Origin: Alphaproteobacteria bacterium
GTDB lineage: Bacteria > Pseudomonadota > Alphaproteobacteria > Reyranellales > Reyranellaceae
Length of the DNA: 36,712 nucleotides
Direction: 5' to 3'
Assembly (NCBI GenBank): GCA_019235415.1
Contig: JAFAKN010000162.1
Coordinates: 1-36,712, forward strand
The notes below the pieces were generated by a model. The model was not told the origin of the DNA. It did not search any database and saw only the letters and a program-made list of their open reading frames with translations. Each line of letters starts with the position of its first letter. Within the stretch, counting starts at the first letter, position 1. Made by a program: the position numbers and the translations under genes. Below, in pieces: positions 26,418 through 35,866 of the stretch.

Positions 26418-29282
26418 CTAGGCTCTGCGCGCCAGCAGCTTGTTCGCGTGATAAGCGGCGAATCGCTGAATGGTAACTGCGAAGATCAGTATAGCACAAA
26501 TAATCAAAATGAAGGCAGCAGGTCCAAAAGAGCCTGCAAGCCACTGAATTCTCCACCAAATCGGAAGTTGCCCGACGAATTTTCTCCGGTTTGACGTGTA
26601 AAATTCACCGCGACCGTCGGTAAAATAGAAAAAGTCGCCCTGGATCTTGGACGTGATGTCCGGGTCTTCCCACTGCTTGGTCATCTCGACCAAGGCTTGG
26701 CCGTTGTTGCCGCCGATCGCCACGACGATCCGGTTGGCGTCAAGCGGCGACCAGTAGCTCGACATGTAGGCGTACGGCTTGCCGAGATTCATGCGCGCGA
26801 GCTCGACCGCGGCGCCGGCGTAGTATGGCGCCCGTGGATCGAAAGGTTGGAACAGCCGCTGGAAGAAACTCGGCTGGGGCACGGCGCTGACGCTGGTGCT
26901 GGTGATGTGGACGGAATTGTAGGACTCCCACTTGCGCAGCAAGCTGTCCGGCGAATCGAGGCCGACGACGATGAGGTTGCGGTCGGCGACGGTGTCCACA
27001 TGCGCCGCGTCGACGATGGCATAGCGAGTCGCTGGAATGCCCGTGTCGTCGGCGATCTTGCCCAGGATATTCAGGAACGCCTGCACCTCTTCGGCCGACG
27101 GCGCTTCCGAGACCACGAAGGCTGTGTCCGACAGATCAGCCAGCCGCGAGAACGGAAAGCCCGAGTTGGCGAACAGCGCGAGGTTGGGGAATGCCGCGAA
27201 ATGGGCGACGTGCGTGAGATCGATCAGCGAATCGGGATCGATGCCGGTTCGGTCGCTCCATTCGAGGCTGGTGCAGTCGGCGCTCTGCGAAGCTCGAAGC
27301 TCGAAGACGAAGTCGAGACGGTTCGAGCTGAACAGCTGATAGCCGGGCAGGATCACCTGGCTCACGCGGTCGTCCGCCCTCCCGGGAAACAGCCATTCCT
27401 TCAAGCGGGACAGCACCTTCAGCTTGGGTTCGAGCGGCACCTCGCCCGCGATCCGCTGGTTGAGGTAGACGAACAGCCGCGAATTGCCGGCATCGATCCA
27501 GGTGTCGTCGGCGCGATGAAGCCTCAGATAGAGCGTGCCGCCCGACAGCGCGCCGAAGAACAGGTCGGGTGCGGTACGAAACGACACCTGCGGCGAGTCC
27601 GCGATTCGCCTCCCATTGAGCGAAGATGGCGCGACCAGATCGCCGAGCCGCACCGGATGGTCGGTCGAGATCCACTTCGGCGCGTCGTAAGGCTTGCGCG
27701 GCGGCGGCAATGGATCGCGGGCCGCGGTCCAGCCACCGGAAAGATGCTGTGCCCCCAGGGCCAATGTCGCAGCAGCGGTCTGCAGCTCGGCCGCGTTGGC
27801 GCCGATGACCAGCAGCAGCTTGCTGTCGACCTGGGCCGGATTGGTGATGACGGCAAGGCGGGGGCCCTCGCCGGGAATCGAGGCGACACCTGGCGGATAG
27901 CGGTCGGCAAGCACGAACACGATGGCGTTGGTGGCGGGCAGACCGTCGAACACGACGGGAAACGTGGCACCCTTGTACTGCGCGATCAGGCCGAAGTAGC
28001 CGGCCACCATCCCGGCCGCCTGCAGGATTTCCGGGGCCGGGCTCGCCGGCATCACGAACGGCAGCGTCAGCGTCAGCGGATCCTTGGGATCGACGAAGGG
28101 CCGCGGCAGGAAGGCAAGATCGTCGGCCAGCGGCAGGCGCGCGGCGCTGAGATACACGAACGAGTTGGGCTCGATGTTCACCCAGAAGGCTTTGTCCCGG
28201 GCGATCTTGCAGGCATCGGCGCCTTGGCCCTTCAGCGCGAAGCGAAACTGCAAGCGGTTGTCGGTTGCCAGCAGGGCCGGACTGAAGGTGAACTCGGTGC
28301 GCGATTTTGGCCCCTTCGACTTGCCGATGGCCACGCTGCCCACCGGCTCGTTGTTGAGCAGCACGGAGAGCTCGCCTTCGTCCCGGGCAACCGCCTGCGA
28401 GTAGCTGAAGATCAGGCTGACGCGGGATCCCACGAAGGCATCGTCCTGTCGGGCCGTGAACGACACGCTCGCTTCAGCCGCCGTGCCTTCGAGGTGCAGG
28501 CCCTCCGATCGGCCCATGTCGCGCAGCCGAATGATCTGGCCTCGGCTGTCCGCCGAGCCCGCGAACATCGGGTAAGTGGAAGAGGACTGCACCGGTGGCA
28601 AGTCGCGCAGCGGCGGAACGACCACGCGAGGTGTCGGAGGCGGCGTGACGCTCGCCGCCGGCGCAGCCCCCGCTGCCGGCGTCGCCTGGGCAGGAGCGAC
28701 CCGACCGGGCGCCGCCTGGACAGAAACCGGTGGTGCAGGAGCGGACTGGGCAGGTGCCGGTTGAGGCGCCGCCGTTGCGGGCAGCGGCGAGGCCTGCGGA
28801 ATGGTGGGAGGCACGATCGGGGTGGCCACATCCTGTGGCGGCAGCGGCGTGGTCGTGGGCAAGGGGGCAAGCGGCTGGGCCGGCGGCATCGCCGGGGCGA
28901 CACCACCGGGATTGCCCGCGCTGGCTCCCGGCGCGGCGGCCGGTGGAGGGGATGCCGGCGAAGCCGGCGCCTGTGGCCCAGCAGCAGGCGAACTGGCAGC
29001 AGGCGAACTGGCAGCGGGCTGCGCCGGCGCGCGTTGGCCCTGGTTGTCCGGTTGCGGAATGATCGCTACGCCCGACGGGATCGTCGGAAACGTCGAGGGC
29101 AATTCGAACTTCTGCTGTGCTTGCGCTCCCGACGTCGGCGGAGCCGTGGAAAAGAGCATCGGCAGCTGGCCGCTCGATGGCGGCTTGTCCCCGGCTTGCT
29201 GCGCCGATGCCGCCAGCAGGCCGCCCCCGAGAACGCTCATGAGAACGCCCATGACCGCGGCCGCCGTGGCTAGCCGGTTCAT
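26418..29282 (-). CDS. bcsB: Cellulose synthase periplasmic regulatory subunit BcsB
   Basis: The 954-residue protein has a signal peptide (MNRLATAAAVMGVLMSVLGG, cleavage after ASA), then a Pro/Ala-rich linker (about residues 80-222). The BcsB carbohydrate-binding and flavodoxin-like domains follow, with segments FTARQDDAFVGSRVSLIFSY, NDFVYL-like and FVLADRYPPGV. A C-terminal membrane anchor comes last (GPAAFILIICAILIFAVTIQ). BcsB binds BcsA through this anchor and guides the glucan through the periplasm. Its ATG overlaps the bcsA stop (ATGA). It is longer than usual (roughly 700-800) because of the linker. The last 200 bases are unusually AT-rich relative to the rest of the gene. Confidence 0.92.
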   Translation of the reverse strand: MNRLATAAAVMGVLMSVLGGGLLAASAQQAGDKPPSSGQLPMLFSTAPPTSGAQAQQKFELPSTFPTIPSGVAIIPQPDNQGQRAPAQPAASSPAASSPAAGPQAPASPASPPPAAAPGASAGNPGGVAPAMPPAQPLAPLPTTTPLPPQDVATPIVPPTIPQASPLPATAAPQPAPAQSAPAPPVSVQAAPGRVAPAQATPAAGAAPAASVTPPPTPRVVVPPLRDLPPVQSSSTYPMFAGSADSRGQIIRLRDMGRSEGLHLEGTAAEASVSFTARQDDAFVGSRVSLIFSYSQAVARDEGELSVLLNNEPVGSVAIGKSKGPKSRTEFTFSPALLATDNRLQFRFALKGQGADACKIARDKAFWVNIEPNSFVYLSAARLPLADDLAFLPRPFVDPKDPLTLTLPFVMPASPAPEILQAAGMVAGYFGLIAQYKGATFPVVFDGLPATNAIVFVLADRYPPGVASIPGEGPRLAVITNPAQVDSKLLLVIGANAAELQTAAATLALGAQHLSGGWTAARDPLPPPRKPYDAPKWISTDHPVRLGDLVAPSSLNGRRIADSPQVSFRTAPDLFFGALSGGTLYLRLHRADDTWIDAGNSRLFVYLNQRIAGEVPLEPKLKVLSRLKEWLFPGRADDRVSQVILPGYQLFSSNRLDFVFELRASQSADCTSLEWSDRTGIDPDSLIDLTHVAHFAAFPNLALFANSGFPFSRLADLSDTAFVVSEAPSAEEVQAFLNILGKIADDTGIPATRYAIVDAAHVDTVADRNLIVVGLDSPDSLLRKWESYNSVHITSTSVSAVPQPSFFQRLFQPFDPRAPYYAGAAVELARMNLGKPYAYMSSYWSPLDANRIVVAIGGNNGQALVEMTKQWEDPDITSKIQGDFFYFTDGRGEFYTSNRRKFVGQLPIWWRIQWLAGSFGPAAFILIICAILIFAVTIQRFAAYHANKLLARRA
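28617..29045 (-). other. Pro/Ala-rich low-complexity linker in BcsB
   Basis: Residues about 80-222 of BcsB are almost entirely Pro, Ala, Ser, Thr and Val, with short repeats such as PAASSPAAS. The segment lies between the signal-proximal region and the first folded domain. It is probably disordered in the periplasm. Confidence 0.8.
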
Positions 29283-31474
29283 GTCGCCTTGGCGGCCGCT
29301 CGTGGCATGTCGCTCGCGGCGGCCGGCTCGCGCTGTCCCTCTCGCTCTGGGGTGGCTCTCGGCTTGGGCCGCCGTGCCACAGTGGCGAGCGTGCGGATCG
29401 CCCGGATCAGGTCGGCCCACGACTTGCCCACGGTGTCGGGCGGACGGTCGTCCCAGCCCAGCCAGGCATCGGCGCGGCCAAACACCGCGCTCACGATGGT
29501 GCGCTCCTCGTCGAGCGAGGTCGGCTTGAACTCCAGGCGAACTTCGCGGCCCTTCACCCCGATGATGCGGGCCGGCACGCTGGAATTGCCTTCGATCTGC
29601 TCGAAATTGATGACCACCTGCTCGTCGATCGACATGTCTTCGGCGAGGTCGTCCATGCGCAGCATGCCGCCGCCCAGCGAAAGATCCTCGGTACGTCCCA
29701 TCAACGAACGCCGGCCGTCGAAGTAGAGCGCCACGGGCTGGCGGATGCGAATGCGCGGCTGCGTCCTGACTTGCCGCCGCTCCAGTCCGACGGCGAGAGC
29801 GGCCAGCACGCTGAAAGCGCTGTAGCAGCACCAGAACAGGTTCATCAGAAGCACACTGGTGTCGCCGGGAAACAGCTCGGTGAAGTTCAAGCGGTATATG
29901 CCGATTGCAATGGCGCCCAGCAGCACCATGACCAGGGCCACCAGGGGCCGCATCACTTGCAGGTCGTAGACTTCGCTTTCGAGAATGCCGCCTTTGGCGG
30001 TCACGTTGAACTTGCCGGCCTTGGGGTTGATCAGCGCGAGCAGAGTGGGCGCCATGATGTGGAACAGCAGGACGTTGTCGTAGATCTCGCCCCAGAACGA
30101 ATAGCGATACCTGCCGTACAGGCGCGACTGGGTGCCGAGCGTGTGAAAGATGTGCGGTCCGGCATAGACCATGACCATGAGCGCGCTGGCGACGATGATG
30201 TTCTGCGAGGTCAGCAGATAGGCGACCGGCGCCGTGAGGAAGACGAAGCGCGGCAGCGGAAACAGGAAATACATCATGGCGTTCAGGTAGCAGATGCGCT
30301 GCCCGAAGCTCAGCCCGCGGCCCAACAGCGGATTGTCCATGCGGAAGATCTGGATCATGCCGCGTGCCCAGCGCATGCGCTGGCCGATATGGATCGACAG
30401 CCGTTCCGTCGCGAGCCCCGCGGCCAGGGGGAAGCGCAGATACGCAGTGTGCCAGCCGCGCCGGTGCATGCGCAGCGAGGTGTGGGCGTCCTCGGTCACG
30501 GTCTCGACGGCGATGCCGCCGATCTCGGTCAGGGCCTCGCGGCTGAGCACGGCGCAGGAGCCGCAGAAGAAGGTGGCGTTCCAGAAGTCGTTGCCGGGCT
30601 GGATCAGGCCGTAGAACAGCTGGCCCTCGTTCGGCACCCGGCCGAAGGTGCCGAGGTTGCGCTCGAACGGATCGGGCGAATAGAAGTAGTGCGGCGTCTG
30701 CAGCATGCCGAGCTTGCGGTCCTCCAGGAACCAGCCGACCGTCATCTGCAGGAAGGCCCGCGTCGGCACGTGATCGCAGTCGAAGATGGCTACGAGCTCG
30801 CCCTTGGTGATGCTAAGCGCATGGTTGATGTTGCCCGCCTTGGCATGCGCGTTGTTCTGGCGAATGATGTAGCCGCAACCCGCCTGCTCGGCGAAACGGG
30901 CGAATTCCGGTCGACGGCCGTCGTCGAGGATGTAGACGCGGAACTTGTCGGGCGGATAGTCCATCGCCATGGCCGCCAGGACCGACGGCTTCACGACGTC
31001 CAGGCTTTCGTTGTACGTGGGAACGAACACGTCGACGGTGGGCCATTCGTCTACCGAGGCCGGCATCTTCGCGGGGCGTCGCTCGAGCGGCCACAACACC
31101 TGGAAGTAGCCGATCATCAGCACGATCCAGGCATAGAGCTCCGCGGCGTAGAGGCCGTAGCCGAACATCATGTCGAACGGGTCGACGAAGCCCAGCGTCT
31201 CGGTGGTGCGCCACCACAGATAGCGTGTCGACACCAGCGCCGACAGCGCGACGATGATCAGGGTGGCGAGCCGATCCTGGAAGCGATTGACGACGAAGAA
31301 GAGGATGGCCGTGAAAATGCCGAATGCCGCCTGGCTCTGCAGGTCGAACGGCGTGATGACCACGAAGGCCGCCGCCATCACGCCGACCAGCGCCAGGAGC
31401 AGGTACAAGAGCCGCAGTCCGATGGGAAACTTGGCGTACTTCCGCTCGATGAGATGCACGTCCTGGTTTGTCAT
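29279..31474 (-). CDS. bcsA: Cellulose synthase catalytic subunit BcsA with PilZ domain
   Basis: The 731-residue membrane glycosyltransferase (GT2) polymerises UDP-glucose into beta-1,4-glucan and extrudes it. Four N-terminal membrane helices precede the catalytic loop, whose motifs are complete: YILDDGRR (Asp184-Asp185), FDCDH (Asp232 and Asp234), VTEDAHT (Thr327-Glu328-Asp329) and the Q-x-x-R-W motif IGQRMRWARG (Gln365, Arg368, Trp369). Further helices follow. The C-terminal PilZ domain has R-x-x-x-R (Arg570, Arg574 in RTQPRIRIR) and D-x-S-x-G-G (Asp597 to Gly602 in EDLSLGGG), so activation by c-di-GMP is expected. The tail after about residue 690 is charged and proline-rich. Start overlaps the bcsQ stop by 4 bases. 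Confidence 0.97.
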   Translation of the reverse strand: MTNQDVHLIERKYAKFPIGLRLLYLLLALVGVMAAAFVVITPFDLQSQAAFGIFTAILFFVVNRFQDRLATLIIVALSALVSTRYLWWRTTETLGFVDPFDMMFGYGLYAAELYAWIVLMIGYFQVLWPLERRPAKMPASVDEWPTVDVFVPTYNESLDVVKPSVLAAMAMDYPPDKFRVYILDDGRRPEFARFAEQAGCGYIIRQNNAHAKAGNINHALSITKGELVAIFDCDHVPTRAFLQMTVGWFLEDRKLGMLQTPHYFYSPDPFERNLGTFGRVPNEGQLFYGLIQPGNDFWNATFFCGSCAVLSREALTEIGGIAVETVTEDAHTSLRMHRRGWHTAYLRFPLAAGLATERLSIHIGQRMRWARGMIQIFRMDNPLLGRGLSFGQRICYLNAMMYFLFPLPRFVFLTAPVAYLLTSQNIIVASALMVMVYAGPHIFHTLGTQSRLYGRYRYSFWGEIYDNVLLFHIMAPTLLALINPKAGKFNVTAKGGILESEVYDLQVMRPLVALVMVLLGAIAIGIYRLNFTELFPGDTSVLLMNLFWCCYSAFSVLAALAVGLERRQVRTQPRIRIRQPVALYFDGRRSLMGRTEDLSLGGGMLRMDDLAEDMSIDEQVVINFEQIEGNSSVPARIIGVKGREVRLEFKPTSLDEERTIVSAVFGRADAWLGWDDRPPDTVGKSWADLIRAIRTLATVARRPKPRATPEREGQREPAAASDMPRAAAKAT

Positions 31475-32244
31475 CTCGATGCGTGTTCCGGACTAGGCAA
31501 CAGTTCGCGTATCGCAGCCGTCAGGCCGCGAATATCCGAGGCGGCCTTGCTCATGGGCGCGCGGTCCACCACCAGCTGCTGGTGAGCGACCGCGTCGCCG
31601 AACGTGTCGTCGTAGTTGACGATGCCGATCATAGTGCTTCCCAGACGCCGCCGCAGCAGGCCGACGACGTCGCGCGTCAGCTTCCGGCGCAGGTCCACCA
31701 TGTTGAAGACGTAGCGGACCGAGCGCGGATGATCCGGCGGTGGCGGCCCAAGGAAGCTCTGCGCCTCGACGGTGGGCAGCAGCGACACCGAGGTGGCATC
31801 GGCCTGCAAGATGACCACGTCCAGGGTGGACACGCCGCGGGTCTGGTCGAGGTAGACAGAAGGTCCGGGTGGCGTGTCGATGACCACCATGAAGCCGCGC
31901 TCGAGAAAGGGCGCAAGAGTTTGCTTGAGCCAGTTGAGGTTGCCTTCGAAATAGTCCGACACGGCGTGGAGCTGCGCCGGTGTCACCCGGCCGAACGGGA
32001 GGATCAGGAGGTTCCCCGTGCCGGGAATGATCGCCTCGCGCATGGACCGGCCGTTGATAAGGCACGGTGCAAGGCCGCGATCATCGCCCAGCTGCACCCC
32101 GAGATGCAGGCGCATGGAATTTTGGACGTCCAGATCGACGACCAGCACGCGATAGCCGCTGCGGGCCAGGACGCCCGCCACGTTGACACTGAGAGACGTC
32201 TTGCCCACTCCGCCTTTAGGCGAGCAGAAGCAGACGACCGACAT
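31471..32244 (-). CDS. bcsQ: Cellulose biosynthesis ParA/MinD-type ATPase BcsQ
   Basis: The 257-residue protein starts directly with the deviant Walker A motif VVCFCSPKGGVGKTSLSVNV (KGGVGKT at residues 10-16). It continues with GYRVLVVDLDVQNSMRLHLG and MVVIDTPPGPSVYLD (Walker A'/B region), as in ParA/MinD ATPases. BcsQ helps localise or assemble the cellulose secretion complex, at the pole in E. coli. Its ATG shares one base with the preceding gene's TAA (TAATG), and its TGA overlaps the bcsA ATG, so translation is coupled on both sides. Confidence 0.93.
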   Translation of the reverse strand: MSVVCFCSPKGGVGKTSLSVNVAGVLARSGYRVLVVDLDVQNSMRLHLGVQLGDDRGLAPCLINGRSMREAIIPGTGNLLILPFGRVTPAQLHAVSDYFEGNLNWLKQTLAPFLERGFMVVIDTPPGPSVYLDQTRGVSTLDVVILQADATSVSLLPTVEAQSFLGPPPPDHPRSVRYVFNMVDLRRKLTRDVVGLLRRRLGSTMIGIVNYDDTFGDAVAHQQLVVDRAPMSKAASDIRGLTAAIRELLPSPEHASR

Positions 32245-32714
32245 TAACCGGCCAGACGATCGAACAGCCCGTTGAGATCACCACTGGTCGGAGCGCCTGG
32301 AATTTCTTCGGCAGGTTTCGTGATGATGCGCCGGATGTCGCTCAACGATCGTTTCGAGGCCGCCCCCTGGTGCAGGCTCGCCAAAGGCGGACGCGCATGG
32401 GGCGGAAACTGGCCGGCGCCCTGTGGATATCCAAAGGCAAGCGCGGAATTGGGCGCGGGGTAGGTGCTGGCCGGGGTCATCGGGCGCGGGCCTTCGAAAA
32501 CTTCGCTCAGGATGTCCGAGCTCGACAGCCCGCGCTGGAGAGGTGCCGGCGAGTGCATGTCGGGCGTCGGCTCCGGTGGCCCCTTGGCGAAAACCGCGTC
32601 GATGAGAGGCGCCGACATCTGGTCGGTCGGGGACTCGAACTCGCGGTAGGACGAGCCCGAGCCGCCTGTCGCCTCGAGGAGATGCGCCACGTCATCGTTG
32701 TTCTTTATTGGCAT
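32244..32714 (-). CDS. Small proline-rich cellulose operon protein, BcsR/BcsP-like
   Basis: The 156-residue protein is the first gene of the bcs operon. Its N-terminus (KNNDDVAHLLEATGGSGSSY followed by REF) resembles the short BcsR/BcsP motif, in which a D-[IV]-x-x-L-[FL] helix is followed by a Gly and a Y-x-E turn. The rest is rich in Pro, Ser and Ala and likely disordered, ending with a possible amphipathic helix (KRSLSDIRRIITKPAEE) and DLNGLFDRLAG. In enterobacteria BcsR pairs with BcsQ to promote BcsA/BcsB assembly and c-di-GMP sensing. A similar regulatory partner role is inferred from position and the 1-base overlap with bcsQ. The name bcsP would be plausible but is not certain. Confidence 0.72.
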   Translation of the reverse strand: MPIKNNDDVAHLLEATGGSGSSYREFESPTDQMSAPLIDAVFAKGPPEPTPDMHSPAPLQRGLSSSDILSEVFEGPRPMTPASTYPAPNSALAFGYPQGAGQFPPHARPPLASLHQGAASKRSLSDIRRIITKPAEEIPGAPTSGDLNGLFDRLAG

Positions 32715-34391: not shown

Positions 34392-34624
34392 GACCATCAT
34401 GGCTTCGCGGCGGGCAGTGGCGCACGGTTGAGTCTGCGACACAATTGACAGCCGACCGTCGCTGGATCCAAAATCCCACTCGGTTGATACGACCTGCCGG
34501 TTGCGTCCCTTAGCGGGAACGGTGAACGTATCGAAGCCTTGTCGGCCTTCCCTTTGCCCGAGCGACCGGGTCAGCAACGCAACCACCTGACACGCCTGGT
34601 TCGCTCTTGCAGAGGACGAGATTC

Positions 34625-35866
34625 ATGCGCGATTTTCGCGACGCCAAGGTCATGGCGCAGACGCTGCGCGAATCCCTGAGCGGCAAATCCCTCACCATCA
34701 GCCACAGCGAGAGCCTGGAGCTCGTCTCCAGGATGTTAGGTCTTGCCGACTGGAACACCCTGTCGGCGCTGCTGCAAGCCGAACGGCGGCCCGAGGCCAC
34801 CCGTCCGGTGGCGAGCGCCATCGCCAGGGAACGAATCGAACCGGGACGCTATCCAGCCGTTCCAGTCAGGGACTTCGTTCCCTTCCCGACTGCAGTTTTT
34901 CCGCTTTTTATCGGACGCGAGAAGACCAAAGCTGCGCTCGACCGCGCATTCAACGACCGGCGCGAGGTCGTCCTCGCCGTTCAAAAAAGCGCCGGCGTCG
35001 ACGCGCCGGGACCCCGAGACATCGACACCATCGGCCTCCTCGCGAAGTTGATCGAATATGAGCAATTGGAAGACGGCACGTCGAAGGTCTTGGTGGCCGG
35101 CCGCCAGCGCGTCGTCATCAACCGCTTCATCACCGACAAGGATTGGTATCAGGCCGAGATCGTCGACCCCGACGAAGAACCCGGTGGCGACGCGACCGAC
35201 CTCGTCCAGAGAATTCTGGAGCGCTTCCAGCCCTATGCGTCCGCCAATGACGTTCGAGTGCCTAAGGGATGGCCATATCCAGACGAAACCCACGATCCGG
35301 GGCGCATCGCCGACGTCATTGCCATGCACGTGGTCATGCCGCTCGAGGACAGGCGAAGGCTGCTGGCGACGCTAAATCCACTTGTCCGCTTGCAGCGCAT
35401 CGCCGCGCTGTTGGAGTCGTGGGCAGTTCCACTCTCACCCGCCTTCGAAGAGACGCGGCGACGAGCCTTAGCCTCTTCCACGCAACGCGGCCATCGGTCT
35501 GCGACTCTGGAACATCTTCTGCTCGCGCTGACCGACGATGCCGATGCATCTTCCGTTCTTGGCGCGTGCGGCGCCGATGCTACGGTATTGAAAGCCGACC
35601 TGGTCAGCTTCCTCGGCAGCGAACGCGACAATATCTTCGTAGCGCCTGGTACGGAGTCGAGACCCACGCCAGCCTTCATGCGCGTCATCCATCGTGCTCA
35701 GCTGCAGGCACAGGAGCAGGGATCCGCGGCAGTCACGGGCATGCATGTCCTGCTGGGCCTGTTCCCCGAGACGCGCAGCCCAGCCGCCCGCTTGCTCGAC
35801 AAGCAAGGCGTCTCGGCAGCACGGGTAGCCGACCTCATTGGTCGAAACCGCGGCACGTCCGGCTGA
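34625..35866 (+). CDS. Fusion of glyoxalase-related module, Lon N-terminal domain and Clp N-terminal domain
   Basis: The 413-residue protein combines three regions. Residues 1-55 (MRDFRDAKVMAQTLRESLSG ... ISHSESLELVSRMLGLADWN) match the short glyoxalase-related N-terminal module found in several proteobacterial proteins. Residues about 78-265 (VPVRDFVPFPTAVFPLFIGR ... EYEQLEDGTSKVLVAGRQRV) match the Lon/LAN substrate-binding domain. Residues about 275-405 form the two-repeat Clp N-domain (SATLEHLLLALTDDADASSV and TGMHVLLGLFPETRSPAARL). There is no AAA+ ATPase, Walker motif or protease domain. It may be a stand-alone adaptor or substrate receptor for Lon or Clp machines. The ATG at 34625 has GAGGA 8 bases before it; a TTG six codons earlier is less likely. 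Function is inference. Confidence 0.82.
   Translation: MRDFRDAKVMAQTLRESLSGKSLTISHSESLELVSRMLGLADWNTLSALLQAERRPEATRPVASAIARERIEPGRYPAVPVRDFVPFPTAVFPLFIGREKTKAALDRAFNDRREVVLAVQKSAGVDAPGPRDIDTIGLLAKLIEYEQLEDGTSKVLVAGRQRVVINRFITDKDWYQAEIVDPDEEPGGDATDLVQRILERFQPYASANDVRVPKGWPYPDETHDPGRIADVIAMHVVMPLEDRRRLLATLNPLVRLQRIAALLESWAVPLSPAFEETRRRALASSTQRGHRSATLEHLLLALTDDADASSVLGACGADATVLKADLVSFLGSERDNIFVAPGTESRPTPAFMRVIHRAQLQAQEQGSAAVTGMHVLLGLFPETRSPAARLLDKQGVSAARVADLIGRNRGTSG

Follow-up and report, generated by a model that had tools for sequence, protein, structure and literature searches.

A covarying pseudoknot leader RNA ahead of a Lon/ClpA N-domain fusion gene and of MATE exporter genes in Alphaproteobacteria, with a possible decoy role for the fusion protein

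The window analysed here, a stretch of 36,712 nucleotides from a Reyranellaceae genome (GCA_019235415.1, contig JAFAKN010000162.1), carries a gene for a three-part protein in which a short N-terminal module (N-module) is followed by a Lon substrate-binding N-domain (LonN) and a ClpA-type Clp N-domain (Clp_N). The upstream regions of otherwise unlike N-module genes resemble one another, and an RNA of about 140 nt, made of two hairpins joined by a pseudoknot, precedes nearly every N-module gene examined. The two hairpins and the covarying pseudoknot of this leader RNA are well supported by the aligned sequences. On the reading favoured here, the RNA is riboswitch-like and turns on proteins for export and sequestration, and the three-part protein is a soluble decoy for binders of the Lon and ClpA N-domains. 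To this reading we give somewhat less than an even chance; its ligand, direction of control and decoy activity are what we infer.

The gene and the domains of its product were located as follows.

34625..35866 (+), three-part protein gene (P0001): ATG start, 413 aa, ORF intact, no internal stop
34625..34789 (+), N-module, residues 1-55: residues 4-55 match positions 8-59 of the 143 of the Pfam model Glyoxalase_8 (4.6e-11); three predicted helices
34850..35416 (+), Lon substrate-binding N-domain, residues 76-264: Pfam LON_substr_bdg, 1.9e-34; Foldseek 9jwa, 4e-18
35453..35845 (+), two-repeat Clp_N of the ClpA type, spanning roughly residues 277-407: Pfam Clp_N, 7.6e-17, two stretches, the best at 358-407; PRK11034 ClpA, 277-406, 3.9e-17

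All three parts exceed the curated Pfam cut-offs, and NCBIfam, profile and structure searches agree on LonN and the two-repeat Clp_N, so that the architecture proposed by eye in the preliminary description stands. NCBIfam matched the N-terminal parts of Lon and Clp/AAA models only (best Lon 1.4e-26, ClpA 3.9e-17). With a profile of six relatives, the nearest structures were those of ClpA for the fused Clp_N (1lzw and 1k6k, about 1e-32) and of the bacterial Lon 9jwa for the fused LonN (5e-50), and E. coli ClpA-N was the closest to the Clp_N by sequence profile. An AlphaFold model (6 sequences; mean pLDDT 74, pTM 0.50) was matched by Foldseek to Lon 9jwa (E 4e-18) and to ClpA-N 1r6o (TM 0.88, scaled by target length). 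Two ClpA-N:ClpS complexes, 1r6o and 1lzw, are among the best structural relatives. Foldseek also matched the LonN fold of stand-alone LonN proteins (PDB 1zbo, BPP1347; 7cay, Xanthomonas) and of cereblon, a eukaryotic ubiquitin-ligase receptor, none of which are Lon proteases; the 1zbo and 7cay entries, of about 170-200 residues, are too short to hold all three parts.

As had been claimed, the protein lacks a catalytic domain: at E ≤ 1, Pfam matched it to no peptidase and to no AAA or Walker-type family. Having neither an AAA ATPase nor a peptidase domain, it is not a member of the Lon or ClpA AAA+ proteases. The earlier concerns that the Lon or Clp_N domain might vanish in profile searches, or that a frameshift had left a fragment of a full AAA+ protein, were not borne out: both domains were detected, and the frame of 413 aa is intact. 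The designation of the N-terminal part as glyoxalase-related has to be narrowed. The Glyoxalase_8 match is real and limited to the helical N-part of that model, and the N-module has no VOC fold and contains no glyoxalase (VOC) domain. Modelled alone, it gave three helices at moderate confidence (AlphaFold mean pLDDT 72.8); no PDB sequence relative was found (best E 1.3) and no Foldseek relative at E ≤ 0.001. Weak HTH-like matches were set aside. An anti-phage role was likewise dropped because PADLOC gave 0 matches for 4 proteins at E ≤ 0.01.

The same architecture, whose wider occurrence the preliminary description had proposed to survey, was found in a second genome of the same genus (G063; 67% identity over residues 1-412). 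In another family, of which 198 genomes were searched, 11 have it, with nine copies full length and two shortened. We labelled this family Bradyrhizobium-type, since a Bradyrhizobium locus (L009) has the same gene type. Within the window's order, two of 76 genomes (the window's own and G063) hold the three-part gene and eight others a module-LonN gene. In 13 aligned rows the N-module opens with MRD[FY]RDAK, and its basic residues R2, R5, K8 and R15 are invariant in 13 N-modules. At 34625-34640 in the window, the codons for M-R-D-F-R-D form an inverted repeat (CGCGAUUUUCGCG), a small hairpin directly after the start codon, which may add constraint on this invariant beginning.

Based on Pfam, the N-module also occurs with LonN alone (L007, L017), with Clp_N alone (L009, L010) and with the ClpX C4 zinc finger (L011, L012), so that the protease heads on it cover three machines, Lon, ClpA and ClpX. 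It is further joined to DUF3471, to the VOC family Glyoxalase_7 and to the C-part of Glyoxalase_8. At E ≤ 1e-8, an N-module search over the 198 genomes yielded 39 rows from 35 of them, which we typed by eye from ORFs, with Pfam for a few, as 11 three-part (two shortened), 6 LonN, 5 Clp_N, 4 ClpX-finger, 9 DUF3471 and 4 VOC-like rows; one DUF3471 row (G622) was typed only because its frame length and its leader resemble those of its genus. The shortened three-part genes, in G514 (L125) and G619 (L109/L146), are both cut within the Clp_N region, which indicates that loss of that part occurs. In G541 (L121/L156), a module-LonN protein of 311 aa shows, by eye, an apparent internal duplication in its LonN part.

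Module-LonN genes were also found on plasmids of Agrobacterium, Rhizobium and Phyllobacterium, in at least 17 of 82 plasmid records (H1-H17) among the matches listed, which cover 40 of the 82. A three-part gene on plasmids was rejected, as none of the 82 records had a single place covering 80% of the query. In the four plasmid stretches read from these three genera (L135-L138), the module-LonN gene has the leader RNA as well; repABC immediately precedes it in one stretch, and traG lies close by in two.

No neighbour gene was constant across lineages in the 34 loci compared (25 top clusters), and an operon partner for the N-module genes was therefore rejected. Most of these clusters were frames overlapping the gene itself; one, common to eight loci at differing distances, was an ABC-transporter-like ATPase (as read in L006). 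Neighbour genes were held in common among the syntenic g290 loci L139-L143. Elsewhere in the window, at 29279-32714 on the minus strand, three genes stand in operon order, as judged by eye:

29279-31474 (-), cellulose-synthase-like glycosyltransferase with a PilZ-like end
31471-32244 (-), ParA/BcsQ-like ATPase
32244-32714 (-), short protein

For nine close pairs from one genus, dN/dS was 0.10-0.19 over the whole three-part gene, and by part 0.06-0.16 in LonN, 0.10-0.22 in ClpN and 0-0.40 in the short N-module. Judged by these ratios, the close orthologues are under purifying selection, from which it follows that the protein is no fragment. In a LonN tree of 56 rows, a branch with weak support (77/9) had the fused domains all to one side, and they fell into two well supported clades. 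The first groups L007, L156 and L132 with the three-part genes; the second unites the remaining module-LonN proteins with the plasmid copies. A second Lon-type protease of the window's genome (L004, G000:C328:15041-15796) is long-branched in this tree. The fused rows of the ClpN tree did not form one group; it should be noted that L125, labelled native there, comes from one of the shortened three-part genes. We compared the fused domains with native ones at those positions where the native domains are constant to 90% or more. Nearly all the native domains are from the window's order, and so narrow a set inflates invariance, so that the following figures overstate loss: the fused Clp_N (16 rows) kept 33 of 56 such positions, 16 in part, and lost 7, and the fused LonN kept 26 of 155, 52 in part, and lost 77. 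With 26 of 155 positions kept, the LonN surface may bind something else.

The leader occupies the gap between a GGDEF-type gene (read from its translation) and the three-part gene, and its parts are given below.

34445..34474 (+), TTGACA-N18-CAAAAT, sigma-70-like promoter by consensus match alone, immediately upstream of the leader
34486..34627 (+), leader RNA, comprising two hairpins with a pseudoknot and running up to the start codon (CM R1; covariation in 40 leaders)
34486..34532 (+), hairpin A, closed by P0 GAUACG/CGUAUC, with conserved CCYGCYG and GGUGAA
34499..34504 (+), pseudoknot 5′ strand GGUUGC, in hairpin A, pairing with 34579-34584
34551..34615 (+), hairpin B, with P1 CCUUUGC (34551-34557) / GCAGAGG (34609-34615), plus P2 and P3
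34579..34584 (+), GCAACC of the hairpin B apical loop, which forms the 3′ strand of the pseudoknot
34609..34615 (+), stretch with the Shine-Dalgarno, paired within P1 (sequence, fold and P1 pairing)

The promoter-like pair had 10/12 matches against a mean of 0.0 (sd 0.2) in shuffles. Scans of 55 upstream regions found an EcfG-like promoter in none (1.4 expected) and a sigma32-like promoter in one (1.6 expected), and on these scans heat-shock and general-stress promoters were rejected. The model R1, which includes the window row, matched the window leader with 133.4 bits (E 1.1e-27), the sole match at E ≤ 1 in this genome. The window fold of hairpin B had a z of -3.2, with 2 of 200 shuffles equally stable. 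Over 40 leaders of the window's group, 99.6% of P0 cells and 92.7% of P1 cells were paired; at least six of the seven P1 pairs, and hence the Shine-Dalgarno pairing, were present in 33, and the pairing was weak in the other 7, including all four ClpX-finger types. This pairing would presumably have a regulatory effect on translation.

These 40 leaders were aligned, out of 52 found upstream of N-module genes, by MAFFT without use of structure; near-copies and two VOC-type leaders (L078, L079) were left out. The pseudoknot, which had no part in choosing the leaders, pairs in all 40 with compensatory changes, as GCUUGC/GCAAGC (27), GGUUGC/GCAACC (9), GCCUGC/GCAGGC (3) and GCCUGC/GCGGGC (1). Over the whole structure, two-sided changes were found at 19 of 35 pairs against 8.8 in shuffled alignments, a value reached by 0 of 500 shuffles, and no slid register came near it. 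A further set of 23 leaders (20 Glyoxalase_8-type and three VOC-type) had been chosen via a pattern scan, without long linkers, so that its 23/23 pseudoknot is partly due to selection, its other helices being unselected; here 20 of 24 pairs showed double changes against 13.3 shuffled, and neither any of 500 shuffles nor any slid register reached this. This pattern scan, run over whole Glyoxalase_8-type loci of other families (L046-L075) and reporting at least 4 of 6 pairs, found the pseudoknot with 6 of 6 at the leader in 28 of 30 and nowhere else in the locus, where matches had 4 or 5 of 6. It added the types GCUCGC/GCGAGC, GCCCGC/GCGGGC, GUCCGC/GCGGAC and GCCCGU/ACGGGC; by eye, L046 has an extra base near the pseudoknot core. 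The shuffling leaves the relatedness among leaders in place; such a variety of pair types across families would be hard to get without pairing.

Model searches tie the RNA closely to the N-module, a coupling that is partly built in, as R1 and the second model, R2, were both made from leaders of N-module genes. In the 198 genomes, R1 gave 39 sites at E ≤ 0.001, of which 38 lie at N-module genes (25 being model rows and 13 not), and 38 of the 39 N-module genes carry the RNA. The exceptional site, in G645 (L214, G645:C1:6053115-6053187), has hairpin A only, of a ClpX-finger-type leader, with neither hairpin B nor an N-module gene, and looks, from its sequence, like a decayed copy; the exceptional gene, in G460, is a divergent ClpX-finger gene lacking an R1 match. 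In a class sample of 387 genomes, R1 matched six, all at N-module genes.

R2 was run over 269 genomes with 12 candidates scored per genome, so that absences mean little; of its 30 matches at E ≤ 2e-5, 26 lay at N-module genes (17 model rows, 9 not) and four directly before MATE exporters (G227, G238, G317, G327). With G432 and G656, the RNA-MATE pairs come to six genomes from three families, and none of the six leaders is in a model. Pfam MatE matched the exporters of G432, G317 and G327 at 2e-31 to 5e-38; the other three were recognised as MATE by eye. In G327 (L051) the RNA stands ahead of the MATE gene, the frame of which runs into the start of a Glyoxalase_8 gene in operon-like order. The other five MATE loci have no N-module gene in the stretch around the RNA (G656, G238, G317, G227; G432 by eye), and all six genomes hold an N-module gene.

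R2 matched 36 of 39 Glyoxalase_8-positive genomes. Among the three without an R2 match, G354 has an R1 match, in G173 only the C-part of the Glyoxalase_8 family was matched, and in G117 no leader was found. Weak R2 matches (10 at E 4.8e-4 to 0.037; 3 at 0.025-0.04) were treated as chance; the sole one inspected, in G281, had no sound gene start after it. R2 gave no match on the window's own leader, and the two leader groups, modelled apart, are joined by shared anatomy and not by one model. A VOC (Glyoxalase_7) protein also belongs to the gene set of the RNA. In L053, an FMN riboswitch (746-909) lies about 0.6 kb from the Glyoxalase_8 gene.

Two features expected of a riboswitch or other cis-regulatory class were thus found, a structured leader covarying beyond column composition and the same RNA before different, functionally linked gene families (N-module types and MATE). 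Rfam 15 gave nothing at E ≤ 10 on the window leader strand and no match at a leader in 13 loci (E ≤ 1 and E ≤ 5); a minus-strand overlap with the Vax2os1_2 lncRNA (6.4 bits, gathering score 55) was taken as chance. A UCGCU-like box in the leader, which we took as a hint of a ROSE thermometer, had no Rfam match to go with it, and that idea was rejected. In the literature covered, which leaves out most subscription journals, we recognised no published description of this RNA or these proteins, and the words glyoxalase and Clp are absent from the main text of two genome-wide RNA discovery papers.

Several known systems come near. The Glyoxalase_8 (PF20066) proteins have the same N-module and, in 28 of 30 loci, the same leader plan, with a C-part in place of the protease heads. 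The yjdF motif riboswitch is, in the available part of PMC4793209, likewise a structured leader; it accompanies almost no genes but those of a single protein family without known function, and a response to toxic compounds was proposed for it; the present leader is another RNA, also stands before MATE genes, and its proteins carry protease N-domains. Closest to the protein is mycobacterial ClpC2, which, in the available part of PMC10030653, is a partial homologue of the unfoldase ClpC1 with a Clp N-domain and a dedicated expression switch, is induced by cyclomarin, acts as a sponge for this compound striking the unfoldase N-domain, and represses itself until released by cyclomarin. The three-part protein, too, is a Clp N-domain protein without ATPase. 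However, ClpC2 is ClpC-type and controlled by its own DNA binding, whereas here a ClpA-type Clp_N is joined to the N-module and LonN, and control apparently lies in the leader RNA. Since its Clp_N is ClpA-type, the protein might be said to work like ClpC2 and not to be a ClpC2.

Exporters, VOC proteins and N-domain proteins behind one RNA suggest a response to a harmful compound. We propose that the three-part gene would be one output of a regulon under the structured 5′ leader RNA, in which a riboswitch ligand (a toxic compound or a stress-accumulated metabolite) would free the ribosome site. The protein would work through binding and not catalysis, its Lon and ClpA N-domains titrating any agent that attacks or loads such N-domains, in the first place inhibitors and failing these adaptors or damaged substrates. 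The co-regulated MATE pumps would export the compound, VOC proteins would bind or detoxify it, and the N-module, as the part in common, may serve in dimerisation or bind a ligand. The decoy role is drawn by analogy with the ClpC2 sponge. We know of no natural product that targets ClpA or Lon N-domains in these bacteria. In its fullest form, in which an undescribed class of pseudoknotted riboswitches in Alphaproteobacteria senses an AAA+ protease-disabling compound and turns on MATE export together with modular Lon, ClpA and ClpX N-domain decoys, two of them in the window protein, the proposal must be called doubtful. Of the functions first suggested for the protein, withholding substrates or sensing stress fits best, given the precedent of ClpC2 and an RNA common to the genes of MATE exporters and of VOC proteins, and a substrate-recruiting adaptor found no specific support.

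The main rival to the decoy is that the N-module itself reads the leader. By binding the pseudoknot it would repress translation of its own gene and, in trans, of the MATE genes, and the C-terminal heads would be effectors, an inhibitor or client on a head lifting the repression, as in ClpC2 at DNA. The self-repression of ClpC2, lifted by cyclomarin in the available part of PMC10030653, speaks for this, as do the tight association of the RNA with the N-module in genes of different head types and the four invariant basic residues of the 13 N-modules. The N-module gene in all six RNA-MATE genomes leaves room for binding in trans. On the other hand, the RNA also stands before MATE genes, whose proteins contain no N-module, and neither the PDB sequence search nor Foldseek recognised an RNA-binding fold in the N-module; on balance we think autoregulation rather unlikely. 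An adaptor is improbable. Here the N-module would capture a client class, and the LonN, ClpN or ClpX-finger head would pair with the N-domains of the host machine and deliver the cargo. One module with three alternative protease heads does resemble a common cargo with a choice of machine, and Lon N-domains and ClpX zinc-binding domains are known to self-associate; yet ClpA N-domains are, to our knowledge, not known to dimerise, no client was found, and the co-regulation of MATE is left unexplained.

MATE is equally unaccounted for if the protein competes with endogenous adaptors, its ClpA-type N-domain titrating ClpS and its LonN titrating Lon adaptors in a stress retuning of proteolysis without any toxin. 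The native-constant positions kept by the fused Clp_N and the ClpA-N:ClpS complexes among its structural relatives agree with such competition, but that invariance is inflated by the narrow native set, and we hold it to be quite improbable; the available part of PMC9663308 does not give the ClpS contact residues. That the gene is ordinary debris, the functionless remnant of a truncated protease, is hardly credible. Two of the 11 copies in one family are indeed shortened, but the low dN/dS of LonN and ClpN already contradicts it, and both the architecture, in distant families, and the leader are conserved.

Even if the decoy idea fails, there remains an RNA with strong covariation and no credible Rfam 15 match, standing before genes annotated mostly by domain name. 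This RNA offers an assay: inducers of a leader-reporter would be candidates for the ligand, and any of them found to bind LonN, ClpA-N or the ClpX finger as well would be candidate protease-directed toxins. If the decoy reading is right, one feature joins an orphan riboswitch-like RNA, drug export and free-standing AAA+ protease N-domains. The system would then be a Gram-negative, RNA-controlled counterpart of ClpC2, and natural toxins aimed at the N-domains of Lon and of ClpA/ClpX would be predicted.
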